IMG/VR virus record: IMGVR_UViG_3300030106_006201
Location: 1-64,000 of that record
Length of the DNA stretch: 64,000 nucleotides
Reading direction: 5' to 3' (one strand)
Source: a virus
Position numbers and translations under genes: made by a program
Shown: in pieces, positions 3,362 to 6,256 of the stretch
Layout: each line of letters starts with the position of its first letter
Numbering within the stretch: the first letter of the stretch is position 1
Notes under the pieces: model-generated
Seen by the model: the letters and a program-made list of their open reading frames with translations, nothing else
Databases searched by the model: none
Told to the model about the DNA's origin: nothing

Positions 3362-3630
3362 GCGGTACCCGGCCCCTTCTGGTCGACCAGGACGAGAACG
3401 AGCACGGCGAATTTTGGGTGCGGCTGCGCGGTGGGAACGGCATGAAAACGTTCACCTCCGAAATGCACCCCACCCGCTCCAACGCGGTGCGCGCCGCCCG
3501 CGCCTACATCGCCGCCATCGAGCCCGTGCCCGTCATCTTCACCTACTGGACCGGGAAACTGCCCGACCGGGACCAAACCCGCAAAGTGCGGGCCGCCGAG
3601 AAAGTCACCGAACGGTTCCACGGGGCATGA
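3358..3630 (+). CDS. Small YegP/DUF1508-like protein (90 aa)
   Basis: ATG 3358 overlaps the RecT stop and its own end overlaps the helicase start. The middle of the protein (DENEHGEFWVRLRGGNGMK, then MHPTRSNAVRAARAYIAAI) resembles the short beta-beta-beta-alpha repeat of YegP/DUF1508 proteins, in which a Trp/Phe-Arg-Asn-Gly strand is followed by a helix. The function of that family is not settled. The operon position suggests a role alongside recombination or replication. The similarity is by eye only. Confidence 0.65.
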   Translation: MSGTRPLLVDQDENEHGEFWVRLRGGNGMKTFTSEMHPTRSNAVRAARAYIAAIEPVPVIFTYWTGKLPDRDQTRKVRAAEKVTERFHGA

Positions 3631-5873
3631 CCGGCGACGACTACCGCCAGTTCCTGGCGCGCAAGCAGGTGCGCGCCGAGCAGGCCGGCCCCGACGTGTC
3701 CCCGGGCGATGTGAACGGGTTCCTGCACCCGTGGCAGCGCGAGATCGTGGCGTGGGCGGTGAAGGTTGGTCGGGCCGCGCTGTGGGAGGACACAGGGCTG
3801 GGAAAGACGATCCAGCAGCTCGAATGGGCGCGCCTCGCGGGCGGGCCTGCGCTGATCATCGCCCCGTTGGCGGTGTGCCAGCAGACGGCTCGCGAGGCCC
3901 GCAAGCTGGGCATACTCGCCGAGTATGTGCGCGACCCTGCAGAGTTGGCCGCAACACCCGCCGACATGCACATCACCAACTACGAACGGGTGGCCGCGTT
4001 CGACCCGGCACAATTCAACGCCGTTGTGCTAGACGAGTGTTTTGCTGTCGGCACATCAGTGGACACCCCTGACGGGCCTAAGTCAATTGAACTTTTCAAT
4101 ATAGGCGACCGGGTAGAATCGGCGGCAGGCCCCGCAACCGTCTGGGACGTTCACCGCAGAGAGGTTCCTTATGCCATCGCAGTCAAATCGCAAGGGCAGG
4201 AAGTTGTCTGCTCGCCCAACCACCCTTGGTTCACTCAGCGAGGATGGGTCGGGGCGCAGGATCTCGAACCGGGAGATTCACTTGTCGATACAGCCGAAGC
4301 CGTGCGAATGGTGCGGCGAGCCGTTCGCCAAGAAATCGGCGACAGCGCACCGCAAGGCGCGTTTCTGCAATCGGTCCTGCTCAGCGAAATGGCGAATGAG
4401 GCAGCCGGAACACCTTGCCAAAGTGCACAATCCGACAGTGGCCGCGAAGCGTGGGGCAAAGCGGGCGGAATGGTTTCGGTCGAGGTCTCCCGAGGCGCAA
4501 GCACAGCTGGAGCGCATACGAAACCTGCGGCCGATGCTGAATCCAGAAAGTCGAGCCAAGGTCTCCCGCCGATTGAAAGAGATCGGCCACAAACCTTCCG
4601 TGCGTGGGGGAAATGGTCAGGGCCCGACTGTGCCGCAGTCGATGCTGCTGGCAATGTTGGACGATTCGTGGCAGGCGGAGCTTGCAGTGTCTTTGGGGCC
4701 ACGGGAACCCGGCTATCCGACGCACTACAAGCTCGACTTAGGCAACGCCGCAATGAAAGTCGGCATCGAGCTGGATGGTCACTCGCATCACTCAAGGAAA
4801 GCGCTGGACCGCAAGAAAGACAACAAGCTGGCTTCGCTCGGGTGGACAGTATTGCGGTTCTGGAACCATCAGATCCTCGACTGGATAGCAGCCGGGGCGC
4901 CGACGGGCGACTGTATTTCTACGACCTTGGAGTCACACGGCATCCGTCTTATTCGGTGAACGGCCATCTAGTGCACAACAGTTCGATTCTCAAGCAGTCC
5001 GATGGGGCCACCCGGACGGCGCTGATCCGGTGGGCGCGTGATGTGCCGTTCCGGCTGGCGTGCTCAGCCACGCCGGCGCCGAACGACCCGGAAGAGTTGA
5101 CGAGCCAGGCCGAATGGTTGGGGCGCATGACGCGCACCAACATGCTGGCCGCCTACTTTGTGCACGACCAGGCGGGCTGGCGGATGAAGCATCACGCGTG
5201 GCGGCCCATGATGCAGTGGATGGCGCAGTGGGCGGTGGCGCTGACCCGGCCGTCCGACGTGGGCGGCGACGACACCGGATACGACCTGCCGGGCCTGAAC
5301 ATCGTGCCGCAGATCGTGCAGGCCGACATCGCCGCCGACGGGCAACTGTTCGCGACCAGCGTGGGCGGCGTTTCCGGGCGTGCCAAGGTGCGTAAGCAGA
5401 CCCTTGCGGAGCGCGTGGAACGCGCCGCCAAGCTGGTCGCCGAAGAGCCCGGGCCGTGGATCATGTGGTGCGGGCTCAACGCCGAGGCCGACGCGCTGAC
5501 CGCGGCGATACCGGGCGCGGTGAATGTGCACGGCTCGATGGATCCTGACGAGAAGGCGGCGAAACTGCTCGGTTTCGCGGACGGCGAGTTCGACGTGCTG
5601 GTCACCAAGCCGTCGATCGCTTCGCAGGGCCTCAACTATCAGCACTGTCACCGCATGGCCTTTGTGGGCTTGGGTGATTCGTACGAGCAGTACTACCAGG
5701 CGATCCGCCGCTGCTACCGATACGGGCAGACCGAGGTGGTGGACGCGCACGTGATCGTGTCCGATGTGGAACGTCAGATCGCGGCCAATGTGGCGCGCAA
5801 AGAGCAGCAGGCCCACCGAATCACCACAGAGCTGGTCGCCGAGATGCAGCGCAACCGGAAGGGGGCGGCGTGA
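3627..5873 (+). CDS. SNF2-like DNA helicase interrupted by an intein
   Basis: 748 residues as translated; about 434 remain after removal of the intein (residues 138-451). The extein is a superfamily 2 helicase: HPWQREI (Q-like motif), Walker A DTGLGKT (55-61), LIIAPLAV (motif Ia), Walker B LDE directly before the intein, then S-S-I-L-K after it. The C-terminal half has CSATPAPN (motif III), LVTKPSIASQGLNYQ (motif V) and YYQAIRRCYRYGQ (motif VI, SNF2 type). The intein sits exactly in the DE-SS of motif II, so unspliced protein should lack ATPase activity. ATG 3627 overlaps the upstream stop. Likely unwinds or remodels phage DNA together with the recombination and methylase genes. Confidence 0.9.
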   Translation: MTGDDYRQFLARKQVRAEQAGPDVSPGDVNGFLHPWQREIVAWAVKVGRAALWEDTGLGKTIQQLEWARLAGGPALIIAPLAVCQQTAREARKLGILAEYVRDPAELAATPADMHITNYERVAAFDPAQFNAVVLDECFAVGTSVDTPDGPKSIELFNIGDRVESAAGPATVWDVHRREVPYAIAVKSQGQEVVCSPNHPWFTQRGWVGAQDLEPGDSLVDTAEAVRMVRRAVRQEIGDSAPQGAFLQSVLLSEMANEAAGTPCQSAQSDSGREAWGKAGGMVSVEVSRGASTAGAHTKPAADAESRKSSQGLPPIERDRPQTFRAWGKWSGPDCAAVDAAGNVGRFVAGGACSVFGATGTRLSDALQARLRQRRNESRHRAGWSLASLKESAGPQERQQAGFARVDSIAVLEPSDPRLDSSRGADGRLYFYDLGVTRHPSYSVNGHLVHNSSILKQSDGATRTALIRWARDVPFRLACSATPAPNDPEELTSQAEWLGRMTRTNMLAAYFVHDQAGWRMKHHAWRPMMQWMAQWAVALTRPSDVGGDDTGYDLPGLNIVPQIVQADIAADGQLFATSVGGVSGRAKVRKQTLAERVERAAKLVAEEPGPWIMWCGLNAEADALTAAIPGAVNVHGSMDPDEKAAKLLGFADGEFDVLVTKPSIASQGLNYQHCHRMAFVGLGDSYEQYYQAIRRCYRYGQTEVVDAHVIVSDVERQIAANVARKEQQAHRITTELVAEMQRNRKGAA
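4038..4979 (+). other. Intein (314 aa) in helicase motif II
   Basis: Begins at Cys138 (TGT 4038) and ends at His-Asn (4974-4979), followed by Ser452 as +1 extein residue. Hint-domain blocks are clear: A, CFAVGTSVDTPDG; B, CSPNHPWFT with H199; then GWVGAQDLEPGDSL; F, LYFYDLGVTRHPSYSVNG; G, HLVHN-S. All are in the helicase frame, which stays open throughout. The middle (about residues 235-390) looks like non-protein sequence in this frame because that DNA encodes an endonuclease in another frame. Confidence 0.9.
4171..4959 (+). CDS. Vsr/DUF559-like homing endonuclease nested out of frame in the intein
   Basis: 262 residues in a different frame from the intein that surrounds it. An N-terminal treble-clef-like zinc finger has C45-x2-C48 and C66-x3-C70 (CEWCGEPF...FCNRSC). 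A nuclease domain has YKLDLG (D189), then VGIELDGHSHH (E200, D202, H204), D213 and LGWTVLRFWNHQI, which match the Vsr-like PD-(D/E)XK/EDxHD fold of DUF559 and I-Bth0305I-type homing enzymes. AGAGAGG lies 7 nt upstream of ATG 4171. It probably cuts intein-free helicase alleles and mobilises the intein. By eye, the protein-like sequence is in this frame, not in the intein frame. Confidence 0.8.
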   Translation: MPSQSNRKGRKLSARPTTLGSLSEDGSGRRISNREIHLSIQPKPCEWCGEPFAKKSATAHRKARFCNRSCSAKWRMRQPEHLAKVHNPTVAAKRGAKRAEWFRSRSPEAQAQLERIRNLRPMLNPESRAKVSRRLKEIGHKPSVRGGNGQGPTVPQSMLLAMLDDSWQAELAVSLGPREPGYPTHYKLDLGNAAMKVGIELDGHSHHSRKALDRKKDNKLASLGWTVLRFWNHQILDWIAAGAPTGDCISTTLESHGIRLIR

Positions 5874-6256
5874 AAGTTGAGTGGCGGCCGGTGCCAGGGT
5901 TTGAAGGCAGATACGAAGTTAGCAACGATGGCCAGGTAGCCAGCTTGCCCACCAGAACATGGCCCACGCGCCGAATAATCGCGGTTGTAATAGCTAAGCG
6001 TGGCGGCTATCCGACCGTCGTGCTGCATATGAACAACAAACAATACGCGCGCAAGATTCACCGCCTAGTCTGTGCAGCATTCAACGGTCCAGCCCCGGCA
6101 GGCGCCACCCTAGTCCGTCACCTGGACGGTGTTGTCACCAACAATGTTCCATCCAATCTGGCATGGGGGACGACTAGTGATAACTTGCTTGATGCGGTTC
6201 GCCACGGCACGCACTTCTCGGCAAAAAAACGCACTGCAAAATGGGCCACCCTTTGA
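5870..6256 (+). CDS. NUMOD4/HNH homing endonuclease, C-terminal end out of frame
   Basis: 128 residues from GTG 5870, which overlaps the helicase stop. WRPVPGFEGRYEVSNDGQV is a NUMOD4 DNA-binding motif. HRLVCAAFNG, VRHLDG and NNVPSNLAWGTTSDN form the HNH core (His-Asp-Asn). The frame ends early at KKRTAKWATL. Read in -1 after the run of seven A at 6223-6229, it continues with the expected zinc-finger end (THCKMGHPLSGDN...RQCRICQAAAKRR) to TGA 6349-6351. The gene is more AT-rich than its neighbours, as expected for a mobile endonuclease. Either programmed -1 frameshifting, a lost base or a sequencing error explains the split. Confidence 0.8.
   Translation: MKVEWRPVPGFEGRYEVSNDGQVASLPTRTWPTRRIIAVVIAKRGGYPTVVLHMNNKQYARKIHRLVCAAFNGPAPAGATLVRHLDGVVTNNVPSNLAWGTTSDNLLDAVRHGTHFSAKKRTAKWATL

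Follow-up and report, generated by a model that had tools for sequence, protein, structure and literature searches.

Inteins have been described with the homing endonuclease nested in frame or, in the split forms, with the endonuclease as a separate gene between the two halves. In the split group, Vsr-like EDxHD nucleases reportedly lie between the intein halves (gp41-1, NrdJ-1) in the so-called fractured genes, a description attributed to Dassa et al. in 2009. For the remaining inteins, descriptions place the endonuclease domain in a nested position, at a site that is conserved (PMC6801210). A nuclease read out of frame has been published in the ShiLan element, an insertion in a phage methylase that carries an out-of-frame HNH nuclease and has no intein features (PMC11855218). 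In the place where overlapping frames are mentioned, that paper cites a preprint of Gosselin et al. (10.1101/2025.01.02.630785, "non-canonical architecture"), and priority for actinophage inteins of such kind is uncertain.

For the locus presented here, the original prediction was an intein whose nuclease is encoded in a different, overlapping frame, together with the statement that no such nuclease was known in a contiguous intein. Among the papers accessible to our search of the literature, none was on an out-of-frame endonuclease in a splicing-competent intein; the out-of-frame idea itself has a precedent, outside inteins, in ShiLan.

The helicase intein and the nuclease frame within it

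The window, that is, the whole stretch of 64,000 nt analyzed here, comes from a virus record of 65.7 kb, in which genes of a tailed phage were found (RecE-like exonuclease, helicase, methyltransferase, large terminase and portal). The helicase gene, the intein and the nuclease ORF are all on the plus strand. The host gene of the intein (3627-5873) encodes a phage DNA helicase of the SNF2/SF2 type (Pfam Helicase_C, 1.3e-8; PHROG DNA helicase, 1.4e-59), and its frame is open from the ATG at 3627 to the stop at 5873. The N-extein (3627-4037) ends in VVLDE, which is helicase motif II, and the C-extein (4980-5870) begins with SSILKQSDG. Between them, at 4038-4979, there is an intein of 314 codons of class-1 type, running from Cys1 to the final His-Asn, with CFAVGTSVD at its N side and GHLVHN/S at its C side (the slash marks the junction). 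The splicing blocks were claimed to be all in the helicase frame, and this was confirmed: Pfam matched Hint_2 (9e-7) and Intein_splicing (1.2e-6) there, and no stop was found between block A and block G. The N-terminal Hint half (intein aa 1-98, 4038-4331) contains blocks A and B, with H62 at 4221, and blocks F and G, up to HN/S, occupy 4902-4979. The residues C1, H62 and N314 were invariant in 81 of 81 homologues, Intein_splicing was matched by 79 of 81 inteins, and the residue following the intein, Ser in the window, was Cys or Ser in all the insertion contexts listed. The Hint fold was recognized by Pfam, by AlphaFold and by structural comparison, in which the best match of the model was the gp41-1 intein (E 1e-6). 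Judged by its sequence, an entire class-1-type intein (DE/C...HN/S) sits in the phage helicase.

Removal of the insert leaves a helicase that can be aligned over 423 residues, with no gap and with an identity of 71%, to the helicase of a Mycobacterium phage that has no intein; in that protein, the junction VVLDE/SSILKQSDG of the window corresponds to VVLDESSILKQSDG. Furthermore, none of the 60 nearest helicases in the viral collection had an intein at exactly the DE/[SA]S site. A group I or group II intron at the locus was considered and rejected, as the host frame is open throughout and an Rfam search of positions 3500-5500 gave no intron match at E values up to 1.

Within the intein, an ORF of 262 codons (4171-4959) is read at +1 relative to the intein frame. 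It had been described as having its own AGAGAGG and ATG and as encoding a zinc finger plus a nuclease of the Vsr/DUF559 type, and both points were borne out. The Shine-Dalgarno sequence AGAGAGG is at 4158-4164, 6 bases before ATG 4171, and the Pfam search of both frames, one of the checks originally suggested, placed DUF559 (5.9e-12) in the nuclease frame and Hint_2 and Intein_splicing in the intein frame. The upstream ATG (-44 aa), with a GAGGT Shine-Dalgarno 5 nt before it, is common to the relatives L020 and L094, and a third relative, L017, has GTG at this position; we took ATG 4171 as the start because close relatives share both the start and the spacing to the Shine-Dalgarno sequence. 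A TTG near 4282 (with a GGAG Shine-Dalgarno, just before the zinc finger) was favored at first, since most relatives start there, and was dropped when the own subfamily of the window proved to share the upstream ATG.

The first 44 codons of the nuclease (4171-4302) appear, by pLDDT and conservation, to be a disordered passenger above block B of the intein. They are followed by the zinc finger CxxC...CxxxC (C45, C48, C66, C70; 4303-4380), whose cysteines were kept in at least 90% of 68 homologues, and by the DUF559/Vsr-like catalytic core (D189, E200, D202, H206, D213, W225, R229, N232; 4723-4881). Residues D189, E200, D202, H206 and D213 were among those invariant in the 68 homologues, all of which matched DUF559. 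The catalytic residues were first named as D189, E200 and H204; the two acidic residues are correct, and the invariant histidine is H206 instead of H204. A profile of the 68 relatives matched the DUF559 structure 3hrl with an E value of 1.6e-14 and, weakly (E 0.007), the homing endonuclease I-Bth0305I (3r3p). In a Foldseek search with the nuclease model both structures were near the top, each with a weak match (E 0.05-0.14), and the probability for I-Bth0305I was 0.95. The profile match and the conserved acidic/His core thus identify the ORF product as a putative DUF559/Vsr-like nuclease. The stretch 4332-4832, in which the core of the nuclease is read at +1 and nuclease position 3 is the least conserved, is in the intein frame a loop with the low pLDDT of disorder, and the location of this loop is consistent with the usual endonuclease insertion site of inteins.

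Other nucleases were observed close to this gene or in its relatives. Directly after the helicase, at 5870-6256 of the window, there is a free-standing homing-type endonuclease gene of the NUMOD4/HNH_3 type (8e-14, 2e-11), which gives the locus a second mobile-type nuclease, from another family. Two relatives of the window helicase (L312, 2966-3391; L313, 2960-3535) are empty at DE/SS and present an insert of 0.4-0.6 kb immediately before W[IV][IV]WCGLN. There the helicase frame is open without intein blocks and another frame encodes Endonuclease_7 (9e-17 and 3.2e-24); L314 probably has a similar insert. These relatives seem to provide a second example of nucleases encoded out of frame, here of the ShiLan type, within this helicase family.

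Recurrence of the layout and constraint on the two frames

A tblastn search of phage genomes with the nuclease gave 41 records, mostly from Vibrio, plus Corynebacterium, Pseudomonas and Burkholderia. In the six public records that we opened, among them that of Corynebacterium phage phi673, a cultivated system with the laboratory strain C. glutamicum ATCC 13032, the nuclease was always at +1 in an intein of a helicase-like gene, right after DE/C, and in all six the intein was unrecognized and the nuclease unannotated. A viral search with the single protein of the window gave only weak, short matches, and searches with alignments were used instead; they provided 80 viral loci and 80 from genomes, and the weaker matches of the latter group (L118 onward) are other DUF559 proteins. 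After grouping the nuclease homologues at 80% identity, 93 clusters were studied. In 91 of them the nuclease was read at +1 within an unbroken frame that carries the intein, with a host frame open for several hundred to more than 2,000 codons around it and stops in the third frame in every case. At least 87 of these 91 clusters had a recognizable intein start and a [VA][HS]N/[CS] end. A second scan used the peptide DECF[PAV][AVP]GT alone (host motif and block A), so that loci were not chosen by their nuclease, and it found the nuclease at +1 in 79 of 80 loci, with E values from 4e-5 to 3e-86; in the sole exception the contig ends 346 bases further on. The two samples share some contigs. The endonuclease is thus read at +1, and not as a domain of the intein frame, both in the window and in most relatives (91 of 93 clusters; 79 of 80 loci of the second scan).

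The results support, at the sequence level, an out-of-frame nuclease inside a contiguous intein as the layout of the window and of about 170 phage and bacterial relatives, and this layout is old and widespread. A base error fusing the nuclease in frame with the intein, which had been named as a finding that would speak against the prediction, can be excluded, since independent phages (of Vibrio, Pseudomonas and Corynebacterium) as well as bacterial genomes have the identical +1 offset. Some relatives depart from the common pattern. In three of them (L212, L216, L229) shortened inteins (188 and 147 aa) occupy the same helicase site with remnants of the nuclease only, and these are apparently decaying towards mini-inteins. 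Another three (L105, L107, L109) carry the same intein and +1 nuclease at the junctions HA/C and HY/C instead of DE/C, which suggests that the element moved to neighboring or other sites.

To evaluate selection on both frames, synonymous codons were shuffled within each locus, keeping one of the proteins, and the stops in the other frame were counted. Keeping the nuclease in the 91 clusters, 774 stops were predicted in the intein frame and 0 were seen; with the intein frame shuffled, 0 were seen in the nuclease frame against 301 predicted. The third frame had 1420 stops, with 1290 predicted. For the window alone, the intein frame had 0 stops against 8.6 expected, a value of 0 being reached in none of 20,000 shuffles, and in the reverse shuffle the nuclease frame had 0 against 2.4 expected (P=0.04). 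The calibration on 56 unrelated DUF559 ORFs (L118-L173), treated as free-standing cellular ORFs, gave 307 stops against 396 predicted, so that the shuffle over-predicts stops by about 30% in the intein frame; this excess is mild and does not affect the conclusion on selection. Two free-standing relatives of the nuclease that came from the same search are natural controls in which the second frame closes outside an intein: L018 has 6 stops in the corresponding frame and L113 has 2. The first of them (L018, 3408-4211) lies outside any intein and is 57% identical to the nuclease of the window; its stops in the former intein frame are below the 12 expected, and it may have recently escaped from an intein.

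The diversity at each codon position was analyzed in 20 distinct inteins of 289 codons and, separately, in the 13 members of the subfamily of the window. In the 289-codon inteins the peak of diversity was at intein position 3 for codons 1-100, at intein position 1, which is nuclease position 3, for codons 101-260, and again at intein position 3 in the final part; between these last two regions, at codons 261-280, the diversity was lower and more even. In the subfamily of the window, codons 45-240 of the nuclease were under constraint in the nuclease frame; in the intein frame, the constrained parts were codons 1-90 of the intein and roughly its final 20. These patterns show, as read from the alignments, a constraint that passes from the intein frame to the nuclease frame and back to the intein frame. 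Stops or an absence of constraint in the 4171 frame of the homologues had also been set down as evidence that would weigh against the prediction; that frame proved to have no stops and to be constrained at the codon level.

The AlphaFold models gave a corresponding picture. In the intein, pLDDT was about 94-98 for aa 1-90, lower towards aa 98, mostly below 60 for aa 123-260, and confident for about aa 270-314. The nuclease had a mean pLDDT of 87.5, with aa 45-255 confident apart from short stretches and about 55 for the first 44 aa. Both the Hint domain and the nuclease are therefore predicted to fold. According to the models, the stretch folded in both frames is 4833-4935 (nuclease aa 221-255 and intein aa 266-299). 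The original prediction that both proteins constrain the same bases over 789 nt, including block B and part of block F, holds for the length of the formal overlap and for about 100 nt near block F, where the double constraint is real; it is not supported at block B. In the first 44 nuclease codons, which cover block B, conservation tracks the intein frame only and is lowest at nuclease position 2. Block F is constrained mainly by the intein; there the four-fold sites of the nuclease, which are few, have a third-base diversity of 0.54 and then 0.35, compared with about 0.7 in the core. The dual constraint is thus mostly alternating, not simultaneous.

Proposed mechanism and alternative explanations

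We consider it very probable that the locus is a mobile intein whose splicing domain and homing endonuclease are made as separate proteins, both encoded by a single stretch of DNA. The helicase would be translated straight through 4038-4979, and the two Hint halves (intein aa 1-98 and 266-314) would fold together, the DNA of the nuclease giving in the helicase frame a harmless disordered loop of the intein. Self-excision of the intein would restore the sequence VVLDE/SSILK. A second ribosome would start internally at ATG 4171, by means of its own Shine-Dalgarno sequence, and would produce a free zinc-finger plus DUF559/Vsr-like nuclease. This protein would cut helicase motif II genes that are free of the intein, and repair would copy the intein into them. 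The alignments show that both frames are maintained in more than 150 relatives and that empty target genes exist, and from the sequences we infer splicing, internal initiation and expression, and the specificity of homing. The homing role is proposed only from the nuclease family, its linkage to inteins, the patchy distribution and the empty sites.

It could be argued that the intein and the nuclease are real and that the helicase site is not a target of homing, the nuclease acting for instance by cutting the DNA of competitors. DUF559 proteins are a broad group and many of them (as L118-L173) are not homing enzymes. However, the nuclease is tightly linked to inteins that occupy one and the same position in helicase motif II, is similar to the mobile-intron enzyme I-Bth0305I and is patchily present against 60 empty relatives, and we regard a non-homing role as unlikely. 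Slightly less likely is a production of the nuclease by programmed +1 ribosomal frameshifting, which would give a chimera of the N-terminal Hint half and the nuclease and no free protein. A fixed frameshift would likewise need the offset that we observed, always exactly +1. Against it, a Shine-Dalgarno sequence precedes the nuclease-frame ATG in 49 of 82 clusters (60%; the other 33 have no clear one), compared with a background of 13.6%, the subfamily of the window shares the start position and the GAGGT spacing, and a non-systematic look noticed no slippery site.

Two further explanations seem to us very improbable, and to the same degree. The nuclease frame could be open by chance, owing to the GC-rich composition, or be a decaying remnant; long spurious ORFs are indeed common in the GC-rich window, and the few relatives with shortened inteins do keep nuclease remnants. 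Nevertheless, the conserved catalytic residues, the DUF559 matches and the purifying pattern in the nuclease frame, with zero stops in 91 clusters, refute this possibility for the family. Alternatively, a sequencing error, or the known split-intein arrangement of fractured genes, could have been misread as a contiguous intein. The best structural match, gp41-1, is a split intein, and Vsr-like nucleases are said to occur between split inteins; yet neither the window nor any of the 91 clusters has a stop between block A and block G, and the layout recurs in phages that were sequenced independently.

Meaning and comparison with known systems

Beyond the single locus, there is quite probably a deep intein lineage at motif II of SF2 helicases, in phages and bacteria of several phyla, in which an overlapping +1 nuclease gene replaces the nested endonuclease and its shadow in the host frame is a disordered loop. 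If this is true, it would be a third architecture besides the nested and the split inteins, and it may represent a step on the way to split inteins or to endonucleases that stand alone. Even in highly divergent relatives, the splicing domain and the nuclease occupy separate frames of a shared stretch of DNA; splicing is uncoupled from homing and the two stay genetically inseparable, which makes it possible to test models of how inteins are gained, decay and split. The layout is also a clean natural case of overprinting of two unrelated folds, with a constraint that can be mapped base by base, and it would be advisable to re-read in all frames those inteins for which no endonuclease has been counted.

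Each component is already known; their arrangement seems to be new. The nearest published relative is the ShiLan domain, with the insertion in Pacc40 gp60 (Arsenault, Gosselin and Gogarten 2025, PMC11855218), which shares with the window an insertion in a phage gene that is open in the host frame, a homing-type nuclease in another frame and a patchy distribution. The ShiLan nuclease, however, is of the HNH family and that of the window of the DUF559/Vsr type; ShiLan has neither splicing blocks nor the fold, and its insert is thought to stay in the protein, whereas the window has a canonical Hint intein; and no Shine-Dalgarno sequence was detected in ShiLan, unlike in the window. With canonical inteins such as PI-SceI the window shares the Hint splicing domain and the location of the nuclease DNA between block B and block F, but its nuclease is outside the intein polypeptide, read at +1 with its own start and stop. 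With regard to the split inteins gp41-1 and NrdJ-1, the Hint fold is related and the nuclease superfamily is the same; in the fractured genes the host gene and the intein are broken by stops around the nuclease, whereas in the window the host frame is unbroken and overlaps it. The group I intron homing endonuclease I-Bth0305I (PDB 3r3p) has a Vsr-like catalytic domain like that of the window nuclease and is borne by an intron, of which Rfam found no match at 3500-5500. Finally, DUF559 (PF04480, e.g. PDB 3hrl) is the same family as the window nuclease, and the other DUF559 ORFs that we retrieved were treated as free-standing, whereas in the window the ORF lies inside an intein.
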